Assembly (NCBI GenBank): GCA_019359415.1
Contig: JAHHHH010000003.1
Location: 62,001 to 126,000 of the forward strand
Length of the DNA: 64,000 bases
Reading direction: 5' to 3'
DNA from: Iphinoe sp. HA4291-MV1
GTDB taxonomy: Bacteria; Cyanobacteriota; Cyanobacteriia; Cyanobacteriales; Nostocaceae
Shown here: piece by piece, positions 29,100 to 59,965 of the stretch
Layout of the letters: each line of letters begins with the position of its first letter
How positions within the stretch are numbered: position 1 is the stretch's first letter
Notes under the pieces: model-generated
Told to the model about the DNA's origin: nothing
The model's input: the letters and a program-made list of their open reading frames with translations, nothing else
The model's database searches: none
Position numbers and translations under genes: made by a program

Positions 29100-29130
29100 A
29101 AGCTGTTGAACTCCGTTGAAATTATTAATT

Positions 29131-29160: not shown

Positions 29161-29244
29161 CGTAGATATCTGAGGGGGTGACAAGCGCCCTGTAATCCTT
29201 GTCGGGTAAGGAATGAAAGCCACTCTGCCATAGTAAAGATATAT

Positions 29245-30143: not shown

Positions 30144-33100
30144 CTAGCGGCGCATTATTTTCTCTCTTCGTCTCTGACCACGAGAAATACTTTTTTCAGC
30201 AGAAAGTATTTCATTCTGTTCCGGACATACAATGTTCGCAAGAGAGTTTATGGTTGGTGCTTCGTAAATGCTTTCTATAGGCATTTCAACATCTAACTTT
30301 TTGTTTAACAAAGAAATAGCTTGAAGAGCGGTTAGAGAATCACCACCCAACTCAAAGAAGTTGTCGTGAATGTTCACGTTGTCAAAACCAAAGAGTTCTT
30401 GCCAAATGTCAGCAATAGTTTTCTCAACCTTTTTACGGGAAGTAGCATAAGTATTCTCCAAAGCGTCAGGTATTTGCTCAACCAGGGTTTCAAACAACTC
30501 ATCAGCAGACTTTGCGTTTGAAGTAACTGGGAAGGACTCAGTCACTAAATTGAAAGATGAACCAGTCAGATGATTTGATAATCCATAAGTTTGATGGGTT
30601 ATTGGTTCTCCGCTATTTGTTGAAATATTTTCAGATGGGAAAAATCCACCTTCTTGCATTTCAACTACGCTTTCCTTGACCGCCAAAATCACCTGTTCAA
30701 TATCTTCGTCAGTATGGGCTGTCGATAGATAAAGGGTGCGTCCTTCCCACACATAAATCCCTTTTTCAAGCAAGTGATAGAAAAGCAAATTACTAAGTTG
30801 AGTCTGGCAATTAAAACGGAAGAGAGAGCCAAAATTAACGACTTTAATTGGTACTTGCTTTTGTTGAAAGTAACTATTAAGAGTTTCGACTAATTGCGTT
30901 GTCCGTTGATTTAACTTTTCTTGAAGTTTGGAACCGCTGTTCTTGATGTGATTGAGTGCAGCCCAGGCGACAGCCATGACGAGAGGATGCTTGAAAAAAG
31001 TACCAGCGAAAAAAGTTGTTTTCACCTGAGGATAAGACTCATCTCCATAATTCCACATACCTCCGTCCAATGCATCCATGAAAGTAGCTTTACCAGCTAC
31101 TACCCCAATAGGTATGCCAGCAGCAACAGCTTTACCGTAGGTCGTGATATCTGCTTGAATACCCCATAAAGCCTGGATACCGCCTGGGTGCATCCGAAAG
31201 CCAGTAACCACTTCATCAAAAATTAAAACAGTTCCAGTTTCTTGAGTTAATTGTCTTAACTGAAAGAGAAATTCTTTGGGCTGCAAATCTGGGCGACTGC
31301 TTTGTATCGGCTCAACTAAAATCGCTGCTAAGTTATGAGCATGCTCTTTAAGAATATTCAGAGATTGGGGAGTACCATACTCCAACACCATGACATCCTC
31401 TGCCAAGTATGATGGAAGACCTGAAGTCATCGGGACAGAACGCAACCTTCCGTCGTTGGTTGTTACTCCTTTGACTAAAACTCCGTCAGAACCGCCGTGA
31501 TAAGAACCAGCAAATAAAGCAATTTTTGAGCGTCCTGTCACAGAACGTGCTATGCGTATGGCTCCCATCACTGCTTCTGTGCCATCATTACAAAAAGCTG
31601 TCCGTTGGGCACCCGTCAACTCGCAAATTAACTTAGCTAGCTGACCAGAAAGACGCGATTGTGGACCATTTAGTATGCCTTGCTTGCTCTGCTCTTGGAG
31701 AGCTTTGATAATAAAAGATGGCGAATGACCAAATAAAAGCGTACCAAACCCCATTGAAATGTCTACGTATTCATTGCCATCGACATCCCAGAGTCTAGCA
31801 CCCTCTCCACGCTCTGCGTGGATTGGATATATCATCTCCTTAATAAAGGGAAGGAACCCTGATACCGCCCTGCTATTGGCATGGTAAGAACGATAAGCTT
31901 GTGTGAGTCGTTTGGATTCTTGGGTACGCTTGATAAAACGTGCAATTAATGCATCCAGATGTTTCTGCTGATGGGGACTCAACATCATCGATTCTTTCTC
32001 GATCTGTTGAAAAGCAGCTTTGGGTGTAAAATCCATTTTCCGGTCTTTGGGCTGTTGCTCGGACTCTGCCCTACTAGATGTAGAGGAAAAATTTGTAGAC
32101 TGATTTACACCAAACCCAGAGGCATTGGTTGAAGTTTGAGCAATTTGCCCATTTTGATGGAGAGGAGAAGATTGGATAGCTTGCAATGAAGGCAAAACTT
32201 CTTTGGGTAAACTTCCCTGTGATAATAAGTCTACCAGTTTAGACATCACCTGAAGATGCTGTGAAATGATTTGTTCAATAACTGTATTTGCTACAGGTTT
32301 CTCCTCTTTTTGATTAACTACTTGCGTATCTGGAGCTTTTTTTGGTTGAGACACAGATTCTCTTGGGGTCGAATCCCCTGAACCATCCCCCTTGCTCCCT
32401 GCTCCCTGCTCCCTTGCCTCTTTTTCAATCCAGTATCTTTTTCGCTCGAAAGGATATGTTGGTAAGGGAATACGATGACGTTGTTCATGAGCATAAAATT
32501 CTGACCAATCTAGATTTATTCCCTCTAGCCAAAGTCTGCCCAACGTATTTAGTAAAAACGCCACATCTGATTGTTGGTTCTGTGGATGTTTTAGTGAAGA
32601 AAGAACTACCTGCTGGGCGCATGCTTGCTTGTTAGCCAAGGTACTTAATGTCTTCCCAGGACCAACCTCCAACAGAATTCGCTCCGGTTGTTGCAGCAAT
32701 TCGGCGATTCCCTCACTAAAACGTACTGTTTGTCGTAAATGTTTTACCCAGTATTTCGGGTCTGTTGCTTGTGCTGCGGTTATCCAAGTACCAGTGACGT
32801 TAGATACAAAAGGAATTTTTGGAGAATTCAGGCTAATTTTGCTGACCTGTTCTTGGAATGGCTCTAGAATAGAGTCCATCATTTGGGAATGAAAGGCATG
32901 GGAAGTATGCAGACGGCGACAGTCCACACCTTGGTCGGTCAATCGGTTTTGTAACTCCTCAATCGCTTGTTCCACTCCAGAAACCACACACAGATTTGGT
33001 CCGTTGATTGCAGCTAAGGAGAGTTTCTCACACAGCAGGGGTTGGATTTCTTGCTCCGATAGTGGTATTGCTAGCATTGTCCCCGAGGGAAGTTGCTGTA

Positions 33101-35090: not shown

Positions 35091-35102
35091 GAAAGCCTCC
35101 CG

Positions 35103-38100
35103 CTACTGATTTGTTTCCCGATGTTTTTGTCTGAGTTGTCTTTGTTGCTTCCTTGATTCTCTACGAGTTTCAACTAAGTCATGGCTTGGTTGAAAAGAAG
35201 GCTTTTCTTCTAATGTTTGACTGAAATGTTTCGCCAACGCGCTAATAGTTGGATATTGAAACATTTCAACAATTGATATATCTCTGTTAAGAATTTGATA
35301 AAGTTTGCTGTGTACCTGAACCATCAGCAATGAATGACCGCCGAGGTCGAAGAAATTGTGATGAATGCCTACTTTCTTAAGATGAAGAACCTCTTGCCAA
35401 ATTATTGCAATAATTTGTTCGAGTTCGGTCTGGGGAGCTACAAAGTTTTCTTCTAGAGAAAGCCGTGGCTGCTCAGGTAGCACCCGACGATCTACCTTGC
35501 CGTTGGGTAGCTTAGGCATTTCCTTCAGCAGAACAAAGGCTGATGGTACCATATATTCAGGTAGCTCATCCAACAAATAGCGGCGAAGTTCGCTCTGGAG
35601 AGTAACTGGCTGTTGGTTAGCAACTAGATATGCCACGAGGTGCATATCTTTAAGTTCATCCTTGCGAGCTAGAACGACAACTTCCCGCACCTGTGGATGT
35701 TGACTCAGTACCGCCGAAATCTCTCCCAATTCAATACGGTAACCCCGGATTTTTACCTGATGATCAAGCCTTCCAAGAAATTCAATGTTCCCATCGCTCA
35801 GATAACAAGCTAAATCTCCCGTTTTGTAAAGGCGCATTCCTGGGCGATGATCGCTAAAGGGATTAGGAATAAACTTCTCGCTAGTTAGAGCAGGCTGATT
35901 GAGATAACCTCTAGCTAAACCATCACCACTGATATAGACTTCGCCGATCGCACCGATGGGAACAGGACGCAAATGAGAGTCAAGTATATATATCTGCGTA
36001 TTGCTAATGGGGCGACCAATCGAGACTTGCGCTCTTGTCTGTTGAGAATAGCAGTGATATACACTACTCCACACTGTTCCTTCCGTTGGTCCATACTCGT
36101 TAAACAGAGATATTTCTGACTGCAATTGATGGTGACGTTGCACTAACTCTGTTGGACAAAGTTCACCCGCAACAATGACACTACAAAGTGATGTTAACTG
36201 TTCGGGTTTTGTCTCCTGCAATAGGAGAGCATACAGAGAGGGAAGGCTTAATAGATGGGAGATGTGATTTTGGGCGATTAACTCTACCAGTTTTGGTATC
36301 TCCAGTTGTAAACCTTCCTGGGGAAGACAAAGAATTCCTCCAGAACAAAGTGTCCAAAAAATACCCGCAACAGAACTATCAAAAGCAAACGAAGAAAGCA
36401 ATAAGAAGCTGGTAACTGATTCTTGGTAATAAGTAATACGAGCAGTCGTCGAGTGAACTAAGTTTTGATGTGTAATCTGCACTCCTTTAGGTTTCCCTGT
36501 AGAACCGGAAGTGTAGATGACGTAAGCCAAGTTTTCAGGACACGTTTTCAAAGCAAGATTTTCGTCACTCTCTTGAGCAATAATTTCCCAAGCTGCGTCC
36601 AAGCAAATCGTTTGGGCGTTGTAAGCAGGTAAACTTTCCAGCAGTCGTTGCTGAGTTAATAATACTGGCGTTTGAGTATCTTCTAATATGAAGGCTAAGC
36701 GCTCTTTAGGGTAAGCTGGGTCAAGTGGTACATAGGCTCCACCAGCTTTGAGAATGCCAAGGATACCGACTATCATTTCGAGGCTTCGCTCAACACAAAT
36801 TCCCACCAGTACGTCTGGTTTCACTCCTAGCCGTTGTAGGTAATGAGCTATTTGATTAGCACTCTGATTTAGTTCACGGTAGGTAAGTTTCTCGTCAGAA
36901 AATATAACAGCAATATTATTTGGTGTTTGCTCCGCTTGTTCTTCAAATAGCTTGTGAATACACTTGTTTTGTGGGTAGTCAGCTTGTGTTTGATTGAACT
37001 CGACGAGAAGTTGACGGAGGTGGCGATCGCTTAAAATTTCTAATTCACTGATTGCAGCTTCTGGATTTTTTACGGCACTTTCTACTAACTTGTTAAATTG
37101 CTCTGCTAAAGTTTCAATATCCTTGGCACAAAACAGGTTGGAATCATAATGAAACTCTGTTTTGAGAAAATTATTCTTTTGCTGACAAGAGAGCTTTATT
37201 TTAAAACGCTCAATGCAGGTGTAATGCTTCTCAATTGAAAATACTATATTATCCGCAAAATACTTTGGTTCTTCTGATTCAAAATCAAAGCCGATAGGGA
37301 AAAAAGGCAAGTTCTCTAATTCGGGATTTGACTCTAATATTTGTTCCCAAGTAAAACACTCCTGCCATTTGTAGATAGATTCTATCGATTCATGAACTTG
37401 CTGCAAAATTTGAGTGAATATAAAATTATCTTCTAAATGACAATGAAGTGGTAAATATTTGGCAAACAGCCCCAATGCTCCTTTGAGTTCCTCATATTTT
37501 CTGCCATCAACTGCTTTGGCTATGATCATCTCAGATTGTCCGATAAGTCGCCAAAGCAGAACTAGCCAGCAAGTTAGATAAAAGGTAGGAGTATAAATAT
37601 TATACTTCTGAGCTAATACTTCGATTTTAGTTACTAATTCCGAGTCAATTATTAAACTTATTAATTTTGGCTCAAATTTCTGTTGCTCAGAAATCAGACT
37701 TTCATGAAAGAGCTTTAAAGTCTTCACAGCAGAGAAGTCTTGTTTGCGCCAATAGTTCCTTCCTATTTTTGTTTCTTCTGCTTCAAGTATTTGATTTTGC
37801 AATTCGGAAAAATCGACGTATTGCAGTGGTAATTCCGAGAATTCATGGTGCCATTTTCCTGAATAGCCAATAGCCAGTTCTTGCACAAAATTCTTGAGAC
37901 TTACACTATCTACACAGAGAGTAGGTAAACTGATAAATAACAGATGCTTCTCTGCCGAAAGAGTCACCAGGAATGTATGTAAAACGGAACCTTGCTCAAA
38001 GTCAAAAGGTAGTTGGCTCAATTGCTGAAATATTATCTCAATTTTAGCTTCTTGTTGTTGAGGATTCAAACTACTAAGATTGTGTTGTTTGTCTAATATG

Positions 38101-38348
38101 ACCTTGCCGTTTGTAATTACTTGTACTGGAAGAGTCATCCCAGGCACACAAGGAAAACACGTGCGGAGTATCTCATGGCGATCAACAATATTTTGTAATG
38201 CCAATTCTAGGTGATTTCTATCGACATGACCTTCAATCAAAATAGCACAATTGCTACGATAAACCTCACTTTGATCAATTTGTTGTAGTAACCATAGATG
38301 CTCTTGCTGAGGTGAAAGTTGAAACCCCTCCATACTTTCTGCTTGCAT
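35103..38348 (-). CDS. NRPS module C*-A(His-like)-PCP
   Basis: A 1081-residue NRPS. The N-terminal condensation-fold domain (10-430, LSPQQEHLWLLQQ) lacks the HHxxxDG motif: the position reads SLPTLCVD. The A domain (450-955) has YTSGSTGKPKG and the specificity residues, read against the GrsA numbering, are D S A L I A E V W plus the A10 lysine. Seven of ten match the bacitracin His code (DSELTAEVCK), so I predict histidine, with moderate trust. A PCP follows (FFDLGGHSLLMVQ, near 1010). The C-terminus is a strongly basic tail (RRESRKQQRQLRQKHRE), perhaps a docking element for the PKS that starts 12 bases later. A free SyrP-like oxygenase lies just upstream. Confidence 0.92.
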   Translation of the reverse strand: MQAESMEGFQLSPQQEHLWLLQQIDQSEVYRSNCAILIEGHVDRNHLELALQNIVDRHEILRTCFPCVPGMTLPVQVITNGKVILDKQHNLSSLNPQQQEAKIEIIFQQLSQLPFDFEQGSVLHTFLVTLSAEKHLLFISLPTLCVDSVSLKNFVQELAIGYSGKWHHEFSELPLQYVDFSELQNQILEAEETKIGRNYWRKQDFSAVKTLKLFHESLISEQQKFEPKLISLIIDSELVTKIEVLAQKYNIYTPTFYLTCWLVLLWRLIGQSEMIIAKAVDGRKYEELKGALGLFAKYLPLHCHLEDNFIFTQILQQVHESIESIYKWQECFTWEQILESNPELENLPFFPIGFDFESEEPKYFADNIVFSIEKHYTCIERFKIKLSCQQKNNFLKTEFHYDSNLFCAKDIETLAEQFNKLVESAVKNPEAAISELEILSDRHLRQLLVEFNQTQADYPQNKCIHKLFEEQAEQTPNNIAVIFSDEKLTYRELNQSANQIAHYLQRLGVKPDVLVGICVERSLEMIVGILGILKAGGAYVPLDPAYPKERLAFILEDTQTPVLLTQQRLLESLPAYNAQTICLDAAWEIIAQESDENLALKTCPENLAYVIYTSGSTGKPKGVQITHQNLVHSTTARITYYQESVTSFLLLSSFAFDSSVAGIFWTLCSGGILCLPQEGLQLEIPKLVELIAQNHISHLLSLPSLYALLLQETKPEQLTSLCSVIVAGELCPTELVQRHHQLQSEISLFNEYGPTEGTVWSSVYHCYSQQTRAQVSIGRPISNTQIYILDSHLRPVPIGAIGEVYISGDGLARGYLNQPALTSEKFIPNPFSDHRPGMRLYKTGDLACYLSDGNIEFLGRLDHQVKIRGYRIELGEISAVLSQHPQVREVVVLARKDELKDMHLVAYLVANQQPVTLQSELRRYLLDELPEYMVPSAFVLLKEMPKLPNGKVDRRVLPEQPRLSLEENFVAPQTELEQIIAIIWQEVLHLKKVGIHHNFFDLGGHSLLMVQVHSKLYQILNRDISIVEMFQYPTISALAKHFSQTLEEKPSFQPSHDLVETRRESRKQQRQLRQKHRETNQ

Positions 38349-38367
38349 ATTTATACCTCTGTGTCAA

Positions 38368-39417
38368 TTAAATGCATTGGGGACTATATGGTTCAGCCAT
38401 TCCTACTAAAATTTTTCTTGGAGGGACAAATGGCGTGCGAGCATGTATTGATAACATATTGTCTAGCATCAATACATCTCCTTTTTGCCAGGAAAAGGTG
38501 ACCATTTCCTGTTGATAAGCTTCTCTCAGATGAGCTAACACTGATGGCTCAATTAGAGAACCATCCCCGTAATATGTGTTAGTCGGTAAGTCTTCTTCTT
38601 TTAAATTTGTCAACAACGAATCGCGTACTGTTGGTTCCAATGTGGAAACGTGGAAAAAAGTGACGTGATTGAACCAAACCATTTCACTCGTTTGAGGATG
38701 TTTGATAACGGCTGGTCCAACTTGTCGAGTTCTCAAGCGATTACCCTCCTTCCATTCAACCTCAATTCCATTGCTTTTGCAATACTCCTCTACCTTTGTT
38801 TTGTCTGTTGTTTGAAATACAGTTTGCCAAGGAAGACCAAATCCATCGCCAAAATTACGCATATACATCACTTTCTTTTCGATGAAGCGATCGCGTATGT
38901 CTGGATGAATACGCTCAAATACTTTTCGACAGCTACCAATTGGAGTTTCTCCTCCAGATTGCGCTGGAGTCATGCAAAAGAAGAATATTTTTAATGGAAA
39001 GGTAGGAGAGTAAGCGTGTTCATTGTGAGGAAAGATGCTTTGCTCTGCAGGGTAATCAGTTGAAGTATAAATTCTACCACCTACTTGAGTTCGTGGAGAT
39101 GCCCGATAACGATACTCCATTGCTTCTCCACAAATAGCTGCGATGATTTGCTCAAATTCTTCTATTGACTTGACTTTGAAATCCCGAAAAAGTATAGCTC
39201 CATATTGTAATAATTCTGTTTTTAAAAATTCTCGATTGTTCTTAGCCCAGTTTTGCAGATTCACACCTTTTATGCTGGGTTTTATCACCAAAGGAAAGTT
39301 GGTTCCTAACTGAATAAATTCTGTTTTTATTAAGCTTCCTGGTGATATGTTGACGGTTTGACGTCTGACAGTTCCCAAATGACCGATATTGTATTCTTGA
39401 TGTTCAGTTTTTGTCAT
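38368..39417 (-). CDS. SyrP/TauD-family beta-hydroxylase, free-standing
   Basis: A 349-residue Fe(II)/2-oxoglutarate oxygenase. Metal motif HNE in IFPHNEHAYSPTFP, distal His and Arg in NMLSIHARTPFVPPRK, plus the family's GAILFRDF and QSGGETPIGSCR. It is homologous over its whole length to the C-terminal domain of the NRPS at 54335, and both resemble SyrP, which hydroxylates the beta carbon of aspartate on a carrier protein. Placed 19 bases after a Gly NRPS and 19 bases before the His-like module, it is best assigned to beta-hydroxylation of that residue. The HNE triad is intact, so it should be active. Confidence 0.9.
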   Translation of the reverse strand: MTKTEHQEYNIGHLGTVRRQTVNISPGSLIKTEFIQLGTNFPLVIKPSIKGVNLQNWAKNNREFLKTELLQYGAILFRDFKVKSIEEFEQIIAAICGEAMEYRYRASPRTQVGGRIYTSTDYPAEQSIFPHNEHAYSPTFPLKIFFFCMTPAQSGGETPIGSCRKVFERIHPDIRDRFIEKKVMYMRNFGDGFGLPWQTVFQTTDKTKVEEYCKSNGIEVEWKEGNRLRTRQVGPAVIKHPQTSEMVWFNHVTFFHVSTLEPTVRDSLLTNLKEEDLPTNTYYGDGSLIEPSVLAHLREAYQQEMVTFSWQKGDVLMLDNMLSIHARTPFVPPRKILVGMAEPYSPQCI

Positions 39418-39436
39418 AATTTGTCTTTCCTTAGAT

Positions 39437-50100: not shown

Positions 50101-51021
50101 TGCAAGTGCCTCAGCAATCACCTTTGCTTGACCTTCGATACTCGGAGCTGTATAGCCAACTTTTGAAGAACCATCATTATTAATAGCTGAACCTTTAATA
50201 ACAGCATGAATATTATCTCCATCCGCTAGAGCATCTGCCAGTCGCTTTAAAGCGACTATGCCCACACCATCACCGCCCACAGTCCCTTTTGCCTGAGCAT
50301 CAAACGCGCGACAGTGTCCGTCGGGAGACAAAATTCCTCCCTCTTGGTAAAAATAGCCAGCTTTTTGTAACACTGTTACAGAAACTCCACCAGCCAAAGC
50401 CATATCACATTCACGATCAATTAAGCTTTGACAGGCTAGGTGAACGGCAACTAATGAACTAGAACATCCAGTTTGAACAGTGATAGCTGACCCCTTCAAG
50501 TCTAGTTTATAAGCGACTCGCGTAGCTAGATTGTCTGTGCGATTGTTATGCCTAATTTGGTCAAGACCTATTAATTTTATCAGTTCGGTGTTAGAAAAAA
50601 GATTGAATAAAAAGTAGGAGCTAATACTGGCACTACCATAAACACTAATCCGACCATCATAGGTTTTAGAATTATAGCCAGCATTTTCAAGAGCCTCCCA
50701 GGCAGTTTCTAAAAAGAGGCGGTGCTGTGGGTCCATAATTTCTGCTGTTCTGGGAGAATAATCAAAGAATGAAGCGTCGAATAATTCTATATCTTCCAGG
50801 ACAGCGTTTGCTTTAACATAATTGGGGTCACTCAGTAAAGATGAATCTACCCCTACTGACTCCAGTTCTTGATTGGAAAAAAATGAAATTGATTCAACCC
50901 CTGAGTGCAGATTGTGCCAAAACTCATCAAGATTCCTGGCTCTAGGAAATCGTCCAAACATACCGATAACCGCTATATCTAAATCGCCTATTTTATTTTG
51001 TGTTTCTAGGCTATTCATCAC
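44185..51021 (-). CDS. Fully reducing PKS, order KS-AT-KR-DH-ER-ACP
   Basis: A 2278-residue type I PKS. KS 10-440 (TGCSSSLVAVH, one Gly for the usual Ala), AT 540-850 (GHSIGEYVAACL, GAFHS malonyl-type), KR 935-1400 (YLITGGLGGIGL, VDYVGANAF with catalytic Tyr), DH 1420-1690 (HRVRGKATLP; second motif LLDTAVSS with Asp but no His/Gln), ER 1710-2020 (HAAAGGVGMAAVQ), ACP near 2182 (FFELGGDSLLIVQ). DH and ER come after KR, the reverse of normal order, and the KR C-terminal segment (EGIEVFRRIL...VIVSTYELQSR) is displaced to after the ER. It would give a saturated two-carbon extension after the Asp residue. It starts 83 bases after the Asp module and overlaps the next NRPS by four bases. Confidence 0.93.
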   Translation of the reverse strand: MMNSLETQNKIGDLDIAVIGMFGRFPRARNLDEFWHNLHSGVESISFFSNQELESVGVDSSLLSDPNYVKANAVLEDIELFDASFFDYSPRTAEIMDPQHRLFLETAWEALENAGYNSKTYDGRISVYGSASISSYFLFNLFSNTELIKLIGLDQIRHNNRTDNLATRVAYKLDLKGSAITVQTGCSSSLVAVHLACQSLIDRECDMALAGGVSVTVLQKAGYFYQEGGILSPDGHCRAFDAQAKGTVGGDGVGIVALKRLADALADGDNIHAVIKGSAINNDGSSKVGYTAPSIEGQAKVIAEALAIARVEPETISYVETHGTGTILGDPIEITALTKSFRAKTKKKNFCAIGSVKTNIGHLDTAAGVAGLIKTILALKHKQIPPTLHFQEPNPQIDFANSPFYVNSKLSAWKTNGTPRRAGVSSFGIGGTNAHVIIEETSEIEASSPGRTYKLLVLSAKTSSALETATANLVKHLQQHPEINLADVAYTLSVGRRVFDHRRIVVCQDLNDTVKILETKDPQRVFTHFTEPCEREIVFVFPGQGAQYVEMGRELYQTEAIFREQVDYCCEILTLVLGLDLRTILYPSPEQATVAAQQLTQTHITQPALFVIEYALAQLWMAWGVRPSAMIGHSIGEYVAACLAGVFSLEDALALVAIRGQLMQQMPAGDMLAVPLPEKEVQLMLGEELALAAINAPSLCVVSGPRSAIDELHNSLTEQGVDCRHLHTSGAFHSQMMEPIIEPFIAQIKKINLKAPQIPFVSNVTGTWITVAETTDPSYWAKHLRQTVRFAEGIALFLQKPEQILLEVGPGRTLTTLARRHPDKTAQQVMLTSLRHPQESDSDVAFLLNTLGQLWLTGVEVDWSRFYTHERRHRLPLPTYCFERQRYWIESKKQANAVKTDVETLPTTSLRKNPEMANWFYIPSWKRSPLSINQPSENPVLSCTLVFIDECGLGEELVKRLELEDRDVIAVRIGSEFTKLSECPTDRLCQRLYTLNPRQRDDYETLLHELLAQNKFPKTIVHLWSVTPVDRVELELETVDKSQETGFYSLLFLAQALGKQNFTDELQIAVISNNMQEVAGEELFYPEKATLLGPIRVIPQEYPNISCRSIDVVIPQEANWSKQKLIDQLLVELQVHTSDRVIAYRGFHRWVQNFEPVRLAEAKEETPRLRERGVYLITGGLGGIGLVLAEHLALTVRAKLILTGRSAFPAPDEWEQWLTTHDEQDVISCNIRKVLELEELGAEVLAISADVTNSEQMQQAIAQAQEQFGQLNGVIHAAGVPGGGVIQRKTPEMAESILAPKVKGTLVLDSILKDVQLDFFVLCSARTGILGGFGQVDYVGANAFLDAFAHHKTNQDATFTVSIDWCAWQEVGMAAQAAQQRDQTSDISQTRQFKEVTHPLFDQCIVEGSQQEIYISHLSVNKHWVLKEHRVRGKATLPETAYLEIARAACENHAQDKTIEIREVYLLTPLIVGDDEEKEVCTLLKKQGDGFEFLIISQSNLGSEQWLEHARGEIVCLEPESPEKHDIKEIEAKCHEREIIFTQDHQPQSEYIEFGPRWNNFKQGKLGINEGLASIELPKVFAADINSYQLHPALLDTAVSSLAGRFKDGAAYLPFYYKRLRIKRPLPTKVYSYMKYLENKQSQKEILKFNITIMDDQGTELVEIEDFTLKKVDIDILSTKVSCSQSETTPPVPESQNLCLKISSPGILSSLTFEPTTRQKPGYGEVEISVGATGLNFKEVLMALGLLPVPPNVPVKFGLECAGKIVALGEGVEGFEIGDEVIAFGYSCFSPFITTSAKWVVPKPDHLSLEEAATIPIAFATAYNSLIKVGKLCQGESVLIHAAAGGVGMAAVQIAQWIGAKIFATAGNAEKRAFLHSLGIEHIMDSRSLAFADEVMKRTDGRGVDVVLNSLGGEFIPKSLAILAPYGRFLEIGVRDILNNSQLGLRPFEKSLSFFATPLNREHPNFSNLWNEVIQHFHDGNFSPLPHHVFPITSVASAFEYMAATKHIGKIVVSLQDKEALSNLVTEENQMSQEATLTVASSVQSRTPSPILSSASSGLFKKPGASTNRFQRQLLKEELLPTEGIEVFRRILGSTLSQVIVSTYELQSRDFLIQGKQDNGFQAKSYPKVLETANLSKLTQQRPSLINPYVAPRNETEQTFADIWQELLGIEAIGIHDNFFELGGDSLLIVQVRSQLQKRLNIDISISDSFEYPTISALAEYLRNKQVEQPVIQQFQKIERAKRGNTKDILAKVNKISDQQVDSLLKEIEILSKNEFEQ

Positions 51022-51104
51022 AATTTCCTTTTTTATTACTTGATGATTTGCACTGATGGTGGTTTAAGTAACTACCTAAAATGCTGTTTTTGGGTCAGAT
51101 AATG

Positions 51105-54100
51105 TTACCTAGATTGCGCTCTTGCCTGCCTTGAAGCAATGCGGCTTTCTGCTCGTTGATTGCTTTCCTCAAAAGAGGAGGTTTCAGTTTGTTCTTGTGT
51201 TAAATATTTAGCTAAAGAGTTGATAGTTGGATATTCAAACAAATTAACAATTGATAGATTTGTGTTTAAAACTTCTCGCAGTTTGGCATGAATTTGAACA
51301 AGAAGTAATGAATGACCACCAAGGTCGAAGAAATTATCATGAATGCCCACCTTTCCAACATGAAGCATCTGCTGCCAGATATTAGCAATCGTTTGCTCGA
51401 CTTCAGTTCGAGGTGGTTCATAAGTGACTTCTAATTCTGGACGATGACCATCTGGTTCTGGTAGCGCGCTGCGGTTGACTTTTCCATTCGGCGTTAGTGG
51501 TAGAGCTTTCAACATCATGAAAGTTGAGGGCACCATGTATTCCGGTAGCTTCTCTCTGAGGAATTTCTGTAGTTCATTAACACTGAGTATTTGTTTTTGC
51601 TTAGGAACAATGTAGCCTACCAAGTACTTGTTGCCAAACTCCTCTTCCCGAACTGAAACGACAGCCTGTTGCACTTGTTGATGTTGACACAGTATGGTCT
51701 CAATTTCTCTTAGCTCAATACGGAAACCCCTGACTTTGACCTGATGATCAACCCGTCCAACAAACTCAATATTGCCGTCGCGCAAATATCGAGCCTTATC
51801 ACCAGTTTTATATAAGCGCGATCCTGACACAGATGCAATGAGTCCTGTCTGTGCAAAGGGGTTGGGAATGAATCGTTCCGCTGTTAGCTCAGAACGATTT
51901 AAATAGCCGCGAGCTAAAGAAGCACCGCCAATGTATAGCTCACCTGTCACGCCAATGGGTACGGGTTGCAGTTGCTCATCAAGCAAATAAATCTGCGTAT
52001 TAGCAAGTGGACGACCAAGTGGAACTGTCTTTTCAGTATAATTAGCTTGCTTATCCTCAACCGCGAAAGTCGTAACCCCCACGGTAGCTTCTGTGGGACC
52101 GTAGTGATTGAAAATAAGGCAGTCTGGCGCACAAGCTTGAATTTGCTCAATAAGTTTCCAACTCGTGGCCTCACCACCAAGAATCAGTTGCTGACGAGGC
52201 AAAATGGACTCGGATGATTCAGATGCAAGCAAAGTGGCAAGGTGGGAGGGTACAATTTTGAGACAATCAATAAAATGTTTGTGGCAATATTTTCCTAGGG
52301 CTGTTGAGTCAGTAGCACACTCGGCAGACAACACATGCAGACACCCTCCAGTACAAAGAGAAGAAAAGATAACAGTGTTACCCAAATCTGCTGCTAGGGT
52401 GGAAACAGTAGCGAAGTTGGTTGTCGTTGAGAAATTCAACCTGTCTGTGATTCCGTTGAGGTAATTCAGCAGTTGTCGATGTTCAATTGCTACCCCTTTT
52501 GGTCTACCAGTCGAGCCAGAGGTGAACAATACGTAGACCAAATTCTCGGTTGTCACAACACTTGTGGGATTCTCATCACTGTGCTGAGCAATAATATTCC
52601 AGTCCGTGTCTAAGCAAACTATCTGCGATGCATCTGTTGGTAAAGTATCTACTAATCGCCGTTGTGTCAATAGCACTGGTACTTGGGCATCCTGTAATCG
52701 GAAGGCAAGACTCTCCTTTGGTAACGCTGGGTCAAGCGGTAAGTATGCTCCACCAGCTTTGAGGATGCCCAAAAGTCCAATAATTATTTTAGGGGATCGC
52801 TCTACGCAAAGCCCAACTAAAACTTCTGGCTTTACTCCCAGCGTTTGCAAGTAATGAGCTAGTTGATTTGCTTTGCGGTTAAGCTCAGTATAGGTCAGTT
52901 GTTGGTCTTCAAATACAACAGCAATATTGTTAGGTGTTTTTTCTACCTGTTCTTCAAAAAGCTTGTGTATACACTTGTCTAGTGGATAATCAATTTGCGT
53001 TTGGTTAAACTCAACTAGTAATTGTTGGCGATCGCTTTTGCTGAGAATTTCTAATTGACATATTTTCTCTTCTGGATTTGCAGTTGCACTAGTTAATAAA
53101 GTTTGAAGCTGTCCAGCTATCCGCTCAATAATTTCAGCCGAAAAGTAATTGACATCATGATAAAATTCTGCTATTAGGAAACTTTCGCGTTGAGTACAAG
53201 TGAGTTTTACTTTAAAAGGTTCAATACAGGTGTAATATTTGTCAAGATACAATGAAACACCACCGGCAATGAGTTGTTCTGGTAGTTGCTCAAACTCGAA
53301 ACCAATAGGAAAAGCTAGTGTATTATTATTTTCTAGTGGTTCCGGAACAAAATAATCTTGCCATTCCGACCCAGCCTCTATAGTTTGTTCAGCGAGTTCT
53401 AAAACTTCTTTGAAGTGCCGTTCTGGTGTTAAATTGCTTTTAATTGGTACCCATGTAGCAACAAGTCCTAGTAAGTTATGTAGTTCTTCATAATCCCTCC
53501 GAGCTGCAGCCATACCGATAATGAAGTCTGATTGTCCTGTCAGTCGCCAAATCAAGACTTGCCAACAGGCTAGTAAGACGACAGCAGTGGAAGTATTATA
53601 CTTTTGGGCTAAAGTTTCAATTTTGGCTGTTAATTCGGGAGCTATTACTAATTGGGTACAGTCTATCTCAAATCCTGATTTTTTTAAAGTCTTATTCTCA
53701 AAAGGTAACTTTAACTTAGCTAAGGAAGATAGTTTCTGCTGACACCAATATTCATTAGCAGTCTTTGCATCCTCGTCTGCAAGTAATTGATTTTGCCATT
53801 CTGAGAATTGAAAGTATTGCACAACTTCATTACACAATTCCTTTCTTTCTAGGCAATCAGAATATGAATTACTAATTTCATTAACTAGATTCTTAATTGT
53901 CCGGGTATCAGCACAAAGTGCAGGCAAGCAAACAAGCAGAATATGCTTATTGGACGACAGTTTCAGTAAAGACAAACGCAATATTGGACCTTGCTCGAAG
54001 TCAAAATATTGGTGTCTCGCCTCCTGAAAAAGCTCCTCGATTTTAGATGACTGTTCCGAAGTATGACAGTTACTTAAATCAATATCTTGCCATAAAAGAA

Positions 54101-54341
54101 AGCTACTATCAGAAACAACCATAACGGGAATCTTTACACCAGGCAAGCGACAAAAATTTGTCCGAAGAATTTCATGTCGATTAACGATTTGCTGTATGGC
54201 TGCTTTTAAGACCTCTGGTTGGAGATTACCTTCTATAATAAGCGTACATTGAGTCAGGTAAGCAGAACTATCTTGCTGCAATAACCAAAGACGTTTCTGA
54301 TGAGGAGACAGCCGAAAGCCATTCAGAGTTTCAGTTAACAT
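51105..54341 (-). CDS. NRPS module C*-A(Asp)-PCP
   Basis: A 1078-residue NRPS. Its N-terminal condensation-fold domain (8-430) lacks HHxxxDG; the site reads CLPALCAD. The A domain (450-960) has FTSGSTGRPKG and an unusual core (TLAADLGNT) with specificity residues D L T K I G H V G K, a textbook aspartate code (DLTKxGHxGK). PCP: FFDLGGHSLLLVQ near 1010. The C-terminal tail is Arg-rich (ESRIASRQARAQSR). The start overlaps by seven bases the preceding NRPS, whose last domain is a SyrP-like oxygenase, the family that beta-hydroxylates carrier-bound aspartate. I therefore predict beta-hydroxy-aspartate. Confidence 0.94.
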   Translation of the reverse strand: MLTETLNGFRLSPHQKRLWLLQQDSSAYLTQCTLIIEGNLQPEVLKAAIQQIVNRHEILRTNFCRLPGVKIPVMVVSDSSFLLWQDIDLSNCHTSEQSSKIEELFQEARHQYFDFEQGPILRLSLLKLSSNKHILLVCLPALCADTRTIKNLVNEISNSYSDCLERKELCNEVVQYFQFSEWQNQLLADEDAKTANEYWCQQKLSSLAKLKLPFENKTLKKSGFEIDCTQLVIAPELTAKIETLAQKYNTSTAVVLLACWQVLIWRLTGQSDFIIGMAAARRDYEELHNLLGLVATWVPIKSNLTPERHFKEVLELAEQTIEAGSEWQDYFVPEPLENNNTLAFPIGFEFEQLPEQLIAGGVSLYLDKYYTCIEPFKVKLTCTQRESFLIAEFYHDVNYFSAEIIERIAGQLQTLLTSATANPEEKICQLEILSKSDRQQLLVEFNQTQIDYPLDKCIHKLFEEQVEKTPNNIAVVFEDQQLTYTELNRKANQLAHYLQTLGVKPEVLVGLCVERSPKIIIGLLGILKAGGAYLPLDPALPKESLAFRLQDAQVPVLLTQRRLVDTLPTDASQIVCLDTDWNIIAQHSDENPTSVVTTENLVYVLFTSGSTGRPKGVAIEHRQLLNYLNGITDRLNFSTTTNFATVSTLAADLGNTVIFSSLCTGGCLHVLSAECATDSTALGKYCHKHFIDCLKIVPSHLATLLASESSESILPRQQLILGGEATSWKLIEQIQACAPDCLIFNHYGPTEATVGVTTFAVEDKQANYTEKTVPLGRPLANTQIYLLDEQLQPVPIGVTGELYIGGASLARGYLNRSELTAERFIPNPFAQTGLIASVSGSRLYKTGDKARYLRDGNIEFVGRVDHQVKVRGFRIELREIETILCQHQQVQQAVVSVREEEFGNKYLVGYIVPKQKQILSVNELQKFLREKLPEYMVPSTFMMLKALPLTPNGKVNRSALPEPDGHRPELEVTYEPPRTEVEQTIANIWQQMLHVGKVGIHDNFFDLGGHSLLLVQIHAKLREVLNTNLSIVNLFEYPTINSLAKYLTQEQTETSSFEESNQRAESRIASRQARAQSR

Positions 54342-57300
54342 TTACTTCCTCCTTTAATCCTTTGGCTTGCAATAGCAATATCTTTGCTTTGAATCATTTC
54401 TCCCATTGCTACCACAATTTTGCGTTGCCCTTCATAGGGGTAGCGTCCGTGTGCAGCAAGCATATTATCTAGCATCAAAATGTCTCCTGACTGCCAAGGA
54501 AAGCTTGTCTTCGACTGCTGATACACTTCGTTAATTTCTGAAATAACTGAGTCTTCTATAGGAGTTTCGTCTCCATAATAAACATTACGTGGTAACTTTT
54601 TCTCTCCAAATAAAGACAACAGAGACTCTCGAACTTCTGCATCTAAATACGCTATGTGGTGTAACTGTATCTGATTGAAAAATACCTTGTCACCAGTTTT
54701 AGGATGTACTGCTACTACTGGACGAACTTGACGAGTCACTAGACTATTATTATCATACCATTCAAATTCAATTCCAGCCTGACAGCAATAATTTTCTACA
54801 ATATATTTGTCATTTGTGTGAAAGAAATCTTGCCATCTGACATCTAGACCATTCGTATAATTACGAACGTACATGAATTGTTTTTCAGCTAATAGTTCTC
54901 GTAGTTTGGGATTGAGGAGTTGATAAGCTTTTCGACAGTCTATAATCGGCGTTTCTCCACCTTGTTCGGCTGATTGTACGCAGAAGAACCAAATTTTTAA
55001 AGGAAACTGATGCAAGTGGGAGCTTTCATTATGAAAGAGGATGGCTTTGTCAGGTGGGTAAGGAGTAGAACCATAAACTTTACCACTCTCTGCTGCACGA
55101 GGTAAATCGCCATAATCACCAAACAAGTCTGGGTAAATTGCCTGGGCAACACTTTCAAATTCCGAGACAGAATCTACATGAAAACCTCGAAATAAAATAG
55201 CACCATGTTTTAATAATTGTCTTTCGAGTAATTCCCGGTTAGTTTTAGCCCAAACTACTAAATCAATCTCGTCAGCATCAGGCTGAATCACTAGAGCAAA
55301 TGTTTGCTCCGGTTGGAGATAATCGGTTTTGATCAATCTTTCTTGTGATAAGCTGACAGCTTTGGGAGCGACACTGATAAACTTTTCCCGATTGAATGCT
55401 TTGCGCTCTGTTTTTTGCATGGCTTGTTGCTTTCTTTCAGCTTCCGTGAGTATTTCTAAGTTACTGATCCGTGCATCAGGTTGGGACACAATGCTGTTGA
55501 GTAGCGTCTGGAAGTGACCTGTCATGCAAGTGATGATGGTGGCATCAAATAAATCAGCATTGTACTGCCACTTGCCCTCGATTCCGAACTTTGTTTCTGT
55601 CAGAAATAGCGCTAAATCAAACCTTGCTATTTTGTTTTCAACTTCTAGTAGGCTTAAGGTCAGTCCTGGCAATTCCAATGTTGGCATAGGAGCATTCTGG
55701 AGGACAAACAACACCTGAAATAATGGTGTTGTATTGCTCAAATTCCGCTCAGGTTGCAAAGCCTTCACTAATTTATCAAAGGGCAAATCCTGATGAGCAT
55801 AGGCTCCTAATGCTACAGAGCGCACTCGTTTGAGCAACTCCCGAAAGCTGGGATTACCACCAAGGTGAGTGCGTAAGACAAGCAGGTTGACAAAAAAACC
55901 AATTAATGGCTCAGTTTCAGCGCGGTTACGATTAGCAACATCAGTGCCAACAACGATGTCATCTTGATTGGTATAGCGTTGTAGCAAGACCTGAAAACCA
56001 GCCAGCAGGGTCATAAATAAGGTGACACCTTCTTGACGCGAGAGCGCTTGCAGTCCTTGAGACGTGTTAGAGAGAATGAGGAAAGATTGAGTAGCGCCCC
56101 TGTTGGTTTTAACCACTGTGCGTGGACGAGTTGTGGGTAATTGCAGTACAGGGAGATTGTTTCCTAATTGCTGCTTCCAGTAAGCGAGTTGAGCTTCAAG
56201 TACTGCTCCTTGTAACTGCTGTCGTTGCCATACGGCAAAGTCTGCGTACTGTATGGGTAATTCTGGAAATGGAGAAGGCTTTTCAGCACAGAAAGCTTCA
56301 TAAAGTGCTGCCAATTCACGAATAAACACACCCATTGTCCAGCCATCTGAGACAATATGGTGGATTGTGAACAATACTATATGCTCCTGATCACTAACGC
56401 GCACTATAGTACATCGCAGTAATGGACCTTGGGCTAAGTCAAAGGTGCGTTGGGATTCTTCGTCAATCAGTTGTTGAACAAGAGGTTTCTGTTCAGCCTC
56501 TGGCAACCCTCTCAAGTCCACTACTGGTAATTTCAAGGTTATAGTTGAGGCGATCGCCTGAAATGGTTGCCCATTTAGGACAGGGAAAGTAGTCCGCAAG
56601 ACTTCGTGACGCTGCACAATTTCACATAAGCTCTCCTCTAGTGCAGCTAAATTCAACAAACCAACAAGTTGTACAGCAACTGGTATGTTGTATGTAGCAC
56701 TACCTGGTTGCAGTTGCTCCAGTAACCACAATCTCTCTTGGGCAAAAGACAGCGGTATATTTTCGTCTCGCGAGACACGCTTGATAGGAGGAGTTTGCTG
56801 TCCCAATTTCACCTCTATTGCTTGTTGTATAGCTTTTGTGAGTCCAGCCACTGTCGGTGACTCAAACAAGCGACGTAGCGATAGCTCTACTTCAAAAGTT
56901 TTCCAGATCCGCGAGATGACTTGGGTAGCTAATAAAGAATGTCCGCCTAACTCAAAGAAATTGTCGTCAATACCTAAGAGTTCAATACCAAGAACTTGAA
57001 TCCAAATTCCAGCTACCACTTCCTCTACTGGATTGCGAGGTGCGACAAAAGCTTCTTTGAGAAAAAATCTGGTGGTGTCAAGTGCTTTTAAGGCACGGCG
57101 ATCTACCTTGCCGTTGGGTGTCAGTGGCAGCGCTTCTAGCATCACAAAGGCTGATGGCACCATATAACTTGGGAGCTTTGACTCCAAAAAATGACGTAGC
57201 TCAGTAACTGTTACAGTCTGCTCTGGGTGCAGGACTACGTAAGCTATCAAACATTTAGAAGCAAGTTCATCCTCAAAAGCCACAACTATATTTTCCCGCA

Positions 57301-59965
57301 CCATTGGGTGTTGGCTGATGACTGCTTCCATTTCTCCCAGTTCAATGCGGAAACCGCGTAGCTTCACTTGATGGTCGATACGCCCCAGAAATTCGAGATT
57401 GCCATTGGCTTGGTAGCGAACCAAGTCCCCTGTTTTGTAAAGACGCGCTCCTTGCTCATTGTGGAAGGGGTTGGGGATAAACTTCTGTGCCGTGAGTTCT
57501 GGTTGGTTAAGATAACCACGAGCAAGTCCGACACCGCCAATGTGCAATTCCCCAGGAACCCCTACAGGAACAGGTTGTTGGTGTGAGTCAAGGATATAAA
57601 ATTGCGTGTTGGCAATTGGTCGCCCAATTGATATGATATTGTCTCTTTCTTTTTGGTCTGGATTGCTTTCTATCATTCGGACAGATGACCAAATGGTAGT
57701 TTCGGTCGGACCGTATAAATTCCATACTTGGGTACCACGTTCGAGCAACTGATTAGCAAGGGAGCGATCGAGAGCTTCACCACCGCAAAGAATTTTCAAT
57801 TGCCGATTGTCCTGCCAGCCAGCAGATAGCAATAGTCGCCAGCTGGCTGGTGTGGCTTGCATAATTGTGGTATTTAACAAAGTCAACCGTTCTAGCAGTT
57901 TGGTTCCGTCAACAGCGATTTCACGACTGACTAATACCAAACGAGCACCTACAATCAGTGGTAGATATAATTCTAGTGCTGCGATATCAAACGACAATGT
58001 AGTGACTGATAATAAAATATCTTCTTTAGTCAACTTCAAATTCTGGCGCATGGCACTTAAAAAGTTAACTAAAGCACCATGACTAATTTGTACTCCTTTG
58101 GGCTTACCTGTTGAGCCGGAGGTGTAAATTACATAGGCTAAATCTTTAGTAGTTGCCTCGTTGATAGAATAGCTATTGCTTTGTTCGACAATTTCCTGCC
58201 AGTCTGTATCAAGGCACACTACCTTTGCTTTATGTTCCGGTAAAGCTGCTACCAACTTCTTTTGAGTAAGCAGGACTGATACTTTGGCATCTTCTAGCAT
58301 GAATGCTAAGCGCTCGTGCGGATATGCTGGGTCAAGCGGCACATAAGCTCCACCGGCTTTAAGGATGCCCAATACTCCGATGACCATATCGAGCGATCGC
58401 TCTGTGCAGATTCCCATCAGAACCAGAGGTTCAACTCCCACTTTTTGCAGGTAGCGTGCTAGTTGATTTGCTTGTCTATTCAGTTCCCGGTAAGTCAGTT
58501 GCTCTTCTTCAAATACTACTGCCACAGCGTCTGGAGTGAGTTCTACCTGTGCTTCAAACAATTGATGAATGCACTGGTCTTGAGGATAGTCAACCTGCGT
58601 GTTATTCCACTCCACCAGCAGTTGGTGACGCTCTGGCGAAGTAAGTAACGACAAGTTTATGAGGCGCTGCTGTGGATTTGCAACCATGCTTAACAACAAA
58701 GCCTGGAGATGCCCTAGCATCCGAGTTATCGTGCCTGTGTCGAAGCGGTGGCAATCATAAAAAATCTCTAGCGATAACTCAGAATCCGCTTTTACTGAGA
58801 CAGTGAGGGGATAATGGGGGTGTATAGAAGTATCAATATTGGATATTTTAATGTTGCCGACTTGCTGTTGTTTTAAAAAATTTATTGAGTAGTTCTGAAA
58901 ATTTAATATACTCTCAAATAATGGCTGTCCAGCTGGCAAATCACTCCACTTCTGAACCTCTACTAATGGGCTGTACTCGTACTGACGTGTCTCATTTTGC
59001 TGTGCTTGAAGCTGCTTTAGCCAAAGTAGGAGAGATTCTTCCAGATTTACATACACTCGCACTGGTAGAGTATTAATAAACACTCCCACCATTGACTCAG
59101 TTCCTGCTAAAGTGGGCGAGCGACCAGATACAACGCCTCCAAAGATGACATCTTTCTCGCCACTATAACGACTCAAAAGAATAGCCCAAGCCCCCTGTAT
59201 CAATGTATTTAGCGTCAACTGTTGCTGGCGAGCCAGAGATTGCAATGCTGCTGTTTCTGTTGTTGATAACTCAAGCAACTGTTTATCATATTTGTTGTCT
59301 TGATTGAGTAAGTGACTAGGCGTTTGGTCTACCTTAAAAGGAGTGACTTCAGTAAAGCCCTTCAGCCGCTGTTGCCAAAACGTTTTGTTTTGAGACGAGT
59401 CTTGCTGTTGCAGCCAAGCTATGTAATCCCGGTAAGGACGGGGGCGCTCTCGGTCTAAGTTCTGATCTTGGTTGAATGCTTTGTAAAAGGCGAAGATTTC
59501 ATCAAGAAGTCGGGACGAAGACCACCCATCCAGCAGCAAGTGGTGATGGCTCCATATAAATTGGTAGTCGTTTTCGGCTAACTGGACCAGAGTTAAGCGC
59601 ATCAGTGGCGCTTGAGACAGTTCAAAGCCTCGATCCCGGTCCGTCTTGAGAAAAGCCTCCAGTTGCTCTTGTTGTTCAACGCTTGCCAACCCACGCCAAT
59701 CTTGCTGCTCCCAGGACAGCTTTACTTGCTTATGCACCAACTGAGCAGGCTCTTTAAGACCTTCCCAAACAAAGGTGGTACGCAAAATTGGGTGACGCTC
59801 TATAATTTGCTGCCAAGCCTGTTGAAATGCTGAAACATTGAAGTCTCCAGCAATTGTACAACTAAGCTGCTCGCAATAGACTCCTGAGTGTGGGGCATAA
59901 AGAGTATGGAAGAGTATGCCCTGTTGCATGGGTGAAAGCGGATAGAAATCTTCAATGTTTTTCAT
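54335..59965 (-). CDS. NRPS C-A(Gly)-PCP-C fused to SyrP/TauD oxygenase
   Basis: A 1876-residue hybrid. First C domain 1-430 (LSPMQQGILFHTL and HHHLLLDGW, the style of domains that accept a D-configured donor or of dual domains), A domain 460-950 with code D I L Q L G L I W K (glycine), PCP with FFELGGHSLLATQ near 1006, second C domain 1060-1490 (HHIVSDGW intact), and after a short linker an Fe(II)/2OG oxygenase 1530-1860: LFHNESSHLHQFP (HNE triad near 1645), QGGETPIIDCRK, NMLAAHGRYPYEGQRK with distal His and Arg. The oxygenase part equals the free gene at 38368. Starts 21 bases after the methyltransferase gene. Confidence 0.94.
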   Translation of the reverse strand: MKNIEDFYPLSPMQQGILFHTLYAPHSGVYCEQLSCTIAGDFNVSAFQQAWQQIIERHPILRTTFVWEGLKEPAQLVHKQVKLSWEQQDWRGLASVEQQEQLEAFLKTDRDRGFELSQAPLMRLTLVQLAENDYQFIWSHHHLLLDGWSSSRLLDEIFAFYKAFNQDQNLDRERPRPYRDYIAWLQQQDSSQNKTFWQQRLKGFTEVTPFKVDQTPSHLLNQDNKYDKQLLELSTTETAALQSLARQQQLTLNTLIQGAWAILLSRYSGEKDVIFGGVVSGRSPTLAGTESMVGVFINTLPVRVYVNLEESLLLWLKQLQAQQNETRQYEYSPLVEVQKWSDLPAGQPLFESILNFQNYSINFLKQQQVGNIKISNIDTSIHPHYPLTVSVKADSELSLEIFYDCHRFDTGTITRMLGHLQALLLSMVANPQQRLINLSLLTSPERHQLLVEWNNTQVDYPQDQCIHQLFEAQVELTPDAVAVVFEEEQLTYRELNRQANQLARYLQKVGVEPLVLMGICTERSLDMVIGVLGILKAGGAYVPLDPAYPHERLAFMLEDAKVSVLLTQKKLVAALPEHKAKVVCLDTDWQEIVEQSNSYSINEATTKDLAYVIYTSGSTGKPKGVQISHGALVNFLSAMRQNLKLTKEDILLSVTTLSFDIAALELYLPLIVGARLVLVSREIAVDGTKLLERLTLLNTTIMQATPASWRLLLSAGWQDNRQLKILCGGEALDRSLANQLLERGTQVWNLYGPTETTIWSSVRMIESNPDQKERDNIISIGRPIANTQFYILDSHQQPVPVGVPGELHIGGVGLARGYLNQPELTAQKFIPNPFHNEQGARLYKTGDLVRYQANGNLEFLGRIDHQVKLRGFRIELGEMEAVISQHPMVRENIVVAFEDELASKCLIAYVVLHPEQTVTVTELRHFLESKLPSYMVPSAFVMLEALPLTPNGKVDRRALKALDTTRFFLKEAFVAPRNPVEEVVAGIWIQVLGIELLGIDDNFFELGGHSLLATQVISRIWKTFEVELSLRRLFESPTVAGLTKAIQQAIEVKLGQQTPPIKRVSRDENIPLSFAQERLWLLEQLQPGSATYNIPVAVQLVGLLNLAALEESLCEIVQRHEVLRTTFPVLNGQPFQAIASTITLKLPVVDLRGLPEAEQKPLVQQLIDEESQRTFDLAQGPLLRCTIVRVSDQEHIVLFTIHHIVSDGWTMGVFIRELAALYEAFCAEKPSPFPELPIQYADFAVWQRQQLQGAVLEAQLAYWKQQLGNNLPVLQLPTTRPRTVVKTNRGATQSFLILSNTSQGLQALSRQEGVTLFMTLLAGFQVLLQRYTNQDDIVVGTDVANRNRAETEPLIGFFVNLLVLRTHLGGNPSFRELLKRVRSVALGAYAHQDLPFDKLVKALQPERNLSNTTPLFQVLFVLQNAPMPTLELPGLTLSLLEVENKIARFDLALFLTETKFGIEGKWQYNADLFDATIITCMTGHFQTLLNSIVSQPDARISNLEILTEAERKQQAMQKTERKAFNREKFISVAPKAVSLSQERLIKTDYLQPEQTFALVIQPDADEIDLVVWAKTNRELLERQLLKHGAILFRGFHVDSVSEFESVAQAIYPDLFGDYGDLPRAAESGKVYGSTPYPPDKAILFHNESSHLHQFPLKIWFFCVQSAEQGGETPIIDCRKAYQLLNPKLRELLAEKQFMYVRNYTNGLDVRWQDFFHTNDKYIVENYCCQAGIEFEWYDNNSLVTRQVRPVVAVHPKTGDKVFFNQIQLHHIAYLDAEVRESLLSLFGEKKLPRNVYYGDETPIEDSVISEINEVYQQSKTSFPWQSGDILMLDNMLAAHGRYPYEGQRKIVVAMGEMIQSKDIAIASQRIKGGSKC

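Follow-up and report, generated by a model that had tools for sequence, protein, structure and literature searches.

A cyanobacterial NRPS-PKS cluster with one Asp- and one His-coding hydroxylation cassette, predicted to make a siderophore of the cyanochelin kind

Gene order and domain content

The cyanobacterium Iphinoe sp. HA4291-MV1 (genome of 7.36 Mb in 140 contigs) carries a mixed nonribosomal peptide synthetase-polyketide synthase (NRPS-PKS) gene cluster in which two amino acid-activating modules are each preceded by a TauD-family oxygenase. We analysed it in a stretch of 64,000 nucleotides, positions 62001-126000 of contig JAHHHH010000003.1 (hereafter the window), and in the contig stretch beyond its right edge (L009, with its own numbering). 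The window genes described below are all encoded on the minus strand, and the assembly line therefore runs from high to low coordinates. A Pfam scan of the window and flank proteins, together with mapping of the adenylation (A) domain codes, recovered the gene order, the domain content and both codes of the two parallel series that a first-pass annotation of the window had described. Series 1 opens with a C-A(Gly)-PCP-C-TauD protein (54335..59965; code DILQLGLIW), whose fused Fe(II)/2-oxoglutarate hydroxylase, TauD1, spans 54407..55276. It continues with an interface-A(Asp)-PCP protein (51105..54341; code DLTKIGHVG), which starts with a condensation-like domain that we call C* (C* domain 1, 53016..54314), and with a KS-AT-KR-DH-ER-ACP PKS (44185..51021). 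In series 2, a C-A(Gly)-PCP-C protein (39437..44188; code DILQLGMIW) is followed by the standalone Fe(II)/2-oxoglutarate hydroxylase TauD2 (38368..39417), by an interface-A(His)-PCP protein (35103..38348; code DSALIAEVW) that begins about 20 bases after TauD2 and includes C* domain 2 (37005..38321), and by a KS-AT-aminotransferase-ACP PKS (30144..35090). The arrangement of one fused and one standalone TauD was seen again in other genera and is hence not a product of chance.

The biosynthetic genes extend about 10 kb past the right edge of the window, where the flank holds the start of the line: a KS-AT-KR-ACP-E protein, a small TauD and a FAAL-ACP-C-A-PCP protein (L009:4016-10294; FAAL, fatty acyl-AMP ligase), the A domain of which is split by an FkbM methyltransferase and has a Ser-like code. 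Divergent from the FAAL gene are the genes for a TonB receptor with an AMIN domain (L009:11297-13990), a PepSY_TM protein, a major facilitator superfamily (MFS) protein, a Suc_Fer-like protein and another small TauD.

Adenylation codes and interface domains

The nine variable code positions of each A domain were mapped with the window's Gly A domain as alignment anchor, and the recovery of known codes supports this mapping. We take DILQLGLIW and DILQLGMIW to be Gly codes, the flank code DVWHISLID to be Ser-like and codes of the DLTKIGEVG type to be Asn-like. DLTKIGHVG was found by the same computation to be identical in both beta-hydroxy-Asp modules of the cyanochelin B plasmid AP017310. Since the structure of cyanochelin B (thiazoline, Phe, Gly, beta-hydroxy-Asp, Ser, beta-hydroxy-Asp, ethanolamine) has been solved by nuclear magnetic resonance and Marfey analysis (PMC12628792; here and below, PMC identifiers refer to the covered sections of a source), the Asp meaning given to this code in the first-pass annotation stands. 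DSALIAEVW is read as His because DSALIAEVWK is reported among the His codes and is said to be able to accept a beta-hydroxy group (PMC12283262).

To place both cassettes, we assembled a comparison panel of 80 stretches of 1.4-14 kb, hand-picked for spread among the listed relatives of TauD2, twenty further stretches of 11-20 kb (six near genomes), 23 named loci, 15 plasmid stretches and the window with its flank; the panel was collected by similarity to TauD2, and its frequencies are not population estimates. Both C* domains of the window are Pfam Condensation matches whose translations lack HHxxxDG. Among distinct panel domains longer than 350 amino acids (aa), and with the search confined to the part where it is expected, this motif was found in 0 of 116 C*-type domains, three of which had the shorter HHxxxD, and in 112 of 145 C domains, the remainder having HHxxxD (26) or neither (7). 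Because the condensation motif is missing from C* and kept in most C domains, C* appears to be the interface domain known from beta-hydroxylation in siderophores, and it likewise lies N-terminal to an A domain and adjoins a TauD hydroxylase. The name 'interface' domain and its docking role in siderophore beta-hydroxylation are said to go back to Reitz et al. 2019.

Throughout the panel, hydroxylase and module go together: an A domain lies at most 3 kb downstream for 130 of the 139 TauD rows, and the next module starts with an interface-type domain for 124. All 23 fused TauDs with interface type 1 behind them are paired with the code DLTK[IV]GHVG; the other 13 fused TauD rows are followed by interface type 2 with an Asn-like code (11), by His (1) or by no module that was read (1). 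Of 388 genomes of the order, 112 contain relatives of TauD2 at E <= 1e-60.

Hydroxylase phylogeny

TauD1 and TauD2 both match PF02668 (TauD/TfdA) and have the facial triad HxE/D...H; the iron ligands H131 and E133 of the HxE motif are present in 118 of 118 aligned rows, and H325 is invariant in an alignment of 23 rows. After removal of ten rows identical over the core, 129 of the 139 rows entered the tree, in which two identical pairs remain, and were labelled by partner code as Asp (61), His (27), Asn-like (23), S-type (4) or other (14). These five labels required 17 changes on the tree against a mean of 60.6 after shuffling, and 0/200 shuffles were as low, with the proviso that label shuffles leave relatedness in place and change counts cannot separate gain from loss. 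TauD1 falls, together with the fused enzyme of cyanochelin B, into a clade of 24 rows that are all Asp (support 99). The 22 rows of TauD2's clade are all His-paired (Shimodaira-Hasegawa-like approximate likelihood ratio test, SH-aLRT, 99) and include a Methylocystis row on a long branch, the placement of which is unsure. Hence the partner A-code follows the hydroxylase clade, and the beta-hydroxy-His that the first-pass annotation had proposed gains support from the reported His code and from the grouping of TauD2 with His-paired enzymes only. The tree of the interface domains (46 rows) tracks the codes less closely, with 10 changes versus a minimum of 5 and three cyanobacterial His rows standing apart.

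His-paired hydroxylases form two separate clades among cyanobacterial enzymes of the Asp/Asn type. In a careful tree of 51 rows they comprise 18 and 5 rows, and a single clade for all His-paired TauDs was rejected by the approximately unbiased test (p 0.0002, log-likelihood 57.9 lower), which was run on 51 of the 129 rows, chosen after the first tree was known and excluding the Methylocystis row. In a quick 46-row tree, a branch with SH-aLRT 100 has every His A domain on the same side; with the A domains grouped and the TauDs split, it seems that the A-domain type of the five-row group is shared and its hydroxylase separate. A scan for positions that differ between the groups found A106, P130, H134 and G161 in 21 of 26 His rows, those of the main clade, and T253 in 24 of 26, with Asp rows having S/D, L/F, S/M/N/L and A/V/I at 106, 130, 134 and 161, respectively. 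Of these, 130 and 134 lie on either side of the HxE motif that binds iron. None of the typical residues at 106, 130, 134 and 161 is present in the five-row clade, which agrees with a separate route to His.

Siderophore context

The TonB protein beside the FAAL gene matches TIGR01783 (TonB siderophore receptor) with 402 bits against a cut-off of 223.5, and the genes for the PepSY_TM and MFS proteins stand next to it. A receptor above the curated cut-off next door is in line with the metal chelator that the first-pass annotation had considered, and it is also what that annotation had suggested looking for beyond the right edge, along with iron-regulated genes. Of the 12 cyanobacterial clusters that were read at their FAAL end, 11 have a TonB receptor beside the FAAL gene (the window, G012, G011, G004, G005, G010, NIES-3755, UHCC 0926, L160, L161 and L164), L162 being the one without. 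The cluster thus combines a FAAL-started line, a TauD before an Asp-coding module and an adjoining TonB siderophore receptor, as cyanochelin-type clusters do. Cyanochelin B has two beta-hydroxy-Asp residues, and with one Asp and one His code the cluster would be a variant, not a cyanochelin B.

Proposed product and alternatives

We consider it likely, with a probability of about 0.78, that the cluster makes a lipopeptide-polyketide siderophore of the cyanochelin kind that contains both beta-hydroxy-Asp and beta-hydroxy-His. The FAAL in the flank would load a fatty acid, and a Ser-like residue and a reduced ketide would come next. Series 1 would add Gly and Asp, with TauD1, carried on the Gly protein, docking on interface domain 1 of the next protein and beta-hydroxylating the PCP-bound Asp, and the PKS of this series would add a fully reduced two-carbon unit. 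Gly and His would then be added by series 2, where the standalone TauD2, docked on interface domain 2, would beta-hydroxylate the PCP-bound His; the aminating PKS and then the KR-ACP-TE module would complete the chain, and nearby methyltransferases may methylate the product. The beta-hydroxy group with the side-chain carboxylate in one residue and with the imidazole in the other would provide bidentate Fe(III) ligands, and the adjacent MFS protein could export the siderophore and the TonB receptor re-import it. The sequence itself shows the gene order, the domains, the codes, the loss of the condensation motif, the linkage of hydroxylase clade to A-code and the receptor; docking, hydroxylation, product chemistry, iron binding and the roles in transport are inferred. 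Since Pfam finds no epimerization (E) domain in either hydroxylating module, the alpha-carbons should stay L. According to the rule quoted in PMC12628792, NRPS-fused hydroxylases give S at the beta-carbon, which together with the missing E domain predicts L-threo beta-hydroxy-Asp as residue 1.

Several points weigh against this proposal. Of the three bidentate Fe(III) groups needed, two were identified; as to the third, one may guess at a beta-hydroxy acid at the C terminus or at a ketide that a small TauD hydroxylates. In Proteobacteria, three TauD loci that include a FAAL (L151, L154 and L155) had no TonB receptor in the stretch read. A scan of ten FAAL/TonB gaps for two Fur consensus boxes (20 tests) gave nothing convincing: three tests were reached by at most 3 of 100 shuffles (the window, with 14/19 matches to the E. 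coli box, 3/100; G005, 3/100; NIES-3755, 2/100), and no site was common to the clusters. As to TauD2 and its partner, three plasmid stretches have a DSALIAEVW module behind a C-type domain with no TauD before it within the stretch, and the code by itself therefore says His, not beta-hydroxy-His. In addition, the TauD trees were built without the sequence of the Pseudomonas beta-hydroxy-His hydroxylase, and the AlphaFold model of TauD2 (mean predicted local distance difference test score 39.9) was discarded, its pocket not being readable.

These points bear on two rival explanations. The second residue might not be His, or His might be left unhydroxylated, with TauD2 idle or acting on Asp elsewhere. 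The literature covered holds no biochemistry on the clade of TauD2, both hydroxylase clades of cyanobacteria are assigned to Asp in a 2026 mining study (CyanoBH_Asp1 and 2; PMC12971057), and DSALIAEVW modules without a preceding hydroxylase exist; nevertheless, we regard this explanation as unlikely given that 22/22 rows of TauD2's clade are His-paired, that TauD clades and partner codes go together on the tree and that the His module follows TauD2 at so short a distance. The residues at 106, 130, 134, 161 and 253 also set the His rows apart, although shared ancestry alone could explain them. Somewhat less probable still is a bioactive lipopeptide in place of a metallophore. Turnercyclamycin, a beta-hydroxy-Asp lipopeptide named as a non-metallophore (PMC12971057), sets a precedent, and the long, highly modified PKS-NRPS with its methyltransferases and aminotransferases, the lack of a recognised third classical chelator gene in the cluster and the unconvincing Fur box would fit such a product, yet the siderophore-class TonB receptor, PepSY_TM and MFS genes adjoin the FAAL gene, and a TonB receptor is the rule at the FAAL end of the cyanobacterial clusters, that of cyanochelin B among them.

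A third explanation concerns the origin of the two series, which the first-pass annotation had called a duplicated block. Both have the same order of parts, as a recent duplication of an ancestral Gly-TauD-C*A-PKS unit followed by a change of A-code would leave them. However, identities between partners are 30% for the first C, 65% for A(Gly), 61% for PCP, 58% for the second C, 47% for TauD, 43% for the interface domain, 51% for the second A, 73% for KS and 71% for AT, and in 9/9 element pairs the best match in other genomes (63-94%) is closer than the in-cluster partner (30-73%). TauD1 and TauD2 moreover stand in different deep clades, and the PKS types of the two series are unlike (KS-AT-KR-DH-ER-ACP versus KS-AT-aminotransferase-ACP). 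Similar cassettes occur in other combinations in other genera. A recent block duplication is thereby contradicted and its probability is very low; since the closest match in another genome is in many cases an orthologue from a relative, this applies to a recent event and not to a very old one. The annotation's observation is thus confirmed in part, and its interpretation overall, with a product that is predicted, is supported.

Going beyond the predicted siderophore itself, we tentatively put forward, at somewhat less than even odds, a cyanobacterial family of mixed beta-hydroxy-Asp/beta-hydroxy-His metallophores built from exchangeable hydroxylase-interface-A cassettes, in which His beta-hydroxylases arose at least twice among Asp/Asn-type enzymes and in which a small TauD that acts on the ketide of the PKS-E module might supply the third iron site of the window's product. 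With at least two such origins, products may be mispredicted by mining rules in which these enzymes stand for Asp.

Relation to known systems

The kind of system is already known, namely NRPS-PKS siderophores with TauD-interface cassettes, cyanochelins above all. The cyanochelin B cluster of Leptolyngbya sp. NIES-3755 (AP017310.1) shares with the window a Gly module with fused TauD followed by interface-A(Asp), a later standalone TauD followed by interface-A, the FAAL start and the adjoining TonB receptor and MFS gene. It differs in its second hydroxylated residue (Asp with an E domain, versus His without one in the window) and in having a thiazoline start and reductive release, whereas the window has TE release and, unlike cyanochelin B, a PKS after each hydroxylated residue, one of them aminating. 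In the fatuamide cluster of a Leptolyngbya sp., FatQ (C-A(Gly)-P-C, 4755 bases, compared with 4752 for 39437-44188 of the window) is followed by the TauD FatR; this cluster has a salicylate start and FatR is predicted to act on Asp, unlike in the window, and the part of the source covered mentions no His (PMC11877528). Homologous clusters occur in Fischerella sp. PCC 9431, Scytonema hyalinum WJT4-NPBG1 and Brasilonema sp. CT11, which share fused-TauD/Asp and standalone-TauD/His in one cluster, the FAAL start and the TonB receptor, and differ in residues and in the PKS steps between and after the cassettes. Outside the phylum, corrugatin, ornicorrugatin and histicorrugatin of Pseudomonas carry beta-hydroxy-His with beta-hydroxy-Asp. 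All three are lipopeptide siderophores (PMC12904278). No cyanobacterial beta-hydroxy-His product was found in the covered parts of the open-access literature under the spelling hydroxyhistidine, the only one searched. As far as could be seen, the pairing of beta-hydroxy-Asp and His cassettes in cyanobacteria is new, and so is the clade-wise evidence for His hydroxylases.

If the proposed product is correct, cyanobacteria make beta-hydroxy-His siderophores, and both the hydroxylase clade and the A-code reveal which residue is hydroxylated. The cassettes would then be natural swaps (Asp, His and the code we take as Asn-like) within one assembly-line family. One such swap is seen in G002, from the same genus as the window's genome, which has an Asn-like code in place of the window's His, the same aminating PKS after it and nearly the same tail, making hydroxylase specificity and interface docking directly testable. 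There may also be a bearing on iron sharing in cyanobacterial communities: beta-hydroxy-Asp iron complexes photolyse (PMC12628792), and a beta-hydroxy-His site might not.

Other genes of the cluster and related loci

Downstream of series 2, on the same strand, follow two S-adenosylmethionine (SAM) methyltransferases of the same Pfam families (29343..30098, with a weak glycine/sarcosine N-methyltransferase match far below cut-off, and 28344..29231) and the last PKS module with its release domain, KS-AT-KR-ACP-TE (22888..28338). The tail further contains a small TauD-family oxygenase with unassigned substrate (21865..22782), which has a homologue at the same place in the sister clusters G002 and G005, a JmjC/cupin-8 oxygenase with the PDB relatives JMJD5/JMJD7 (20842..21783), also present in the sister cluster G002, a SAM methyltransferase (19886..20650) and a class III aminotransferase (18245..19735). 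Upstream of series 1, a methyltransferase-like protein of 302 aa (59987..60895, minus strand; weak Methyltransf_24 match below cut-off) has a homologue in relatives that adjoins a cassette of the same type. Rfam at gathering thresholds gave no match anywhere in the window. The FkbM methyltransferase inside the Ser-like A domain of the flank has no counterpart in the homologues of this FAAL gene from Scytonema hyalinum (G012) and G213 (L160).

The KS-AT-KR-ACP module with a terminal epimerase-like E domain crosses the right edge of the window (60922..64000, minus strand, continuing to L009:2954; 2010 aa in the joined reading) and occurs also in G011, G012, L160, L162 and Nostoc loci. Eight of 12 such PKS-linked E domains have HHLxxD[IV]GS, whereas ordinary E domains mostly have HHLxxDGVS; the later motif, readable in five, is EGNGR[DE] in all of them and EGHGRE in none. 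A malonyl-derived unit offers no obvious carbon for the E domain to epimerise. A small TauD goes with the PKS-E module in four clusters (the window, G012, G011 and G213) and is rare, being found at E <= 1e-50 in 3 of 243 genomes of the order, the window's genome included. The small TauD does not always accompany PKS-E, which makes it a weak lead: no small TauD lies between the FAAL gene and the PKS-E gene of L162, and the one in G245 adjoins a TonB receptor in a stretch of 20 kb that was read and contains no PKS-E.

Related cassettes also occur with other codes. In a cyanobacterial group of ten loci (L057-L059 and L061-L067, mostly Nostoc), a TauD fused to C-A-PCP-C or to C is paired with the Asn-like DLTKIGEVG, and beta-hydroxy-Asn is a possible product there. 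Four TauD-interface modules (L095, L100, L115 and G005:C150 ~41133-45815, which is L033/L034) have A domains without the conserved Asp235 and with the code SSRDxxMGx, the substrate of which may be an acid lacking the alpha-amino group. The genome of Iphinoe sp. HA4291-MV1 itself holds two more TauD-interface loci, L078 (contig C94) and L126 (contig C79), one of them His-coded with an E domain and the other Asp-coded with an MFS gene, so that the strain possibly has three such metallophore clusters.

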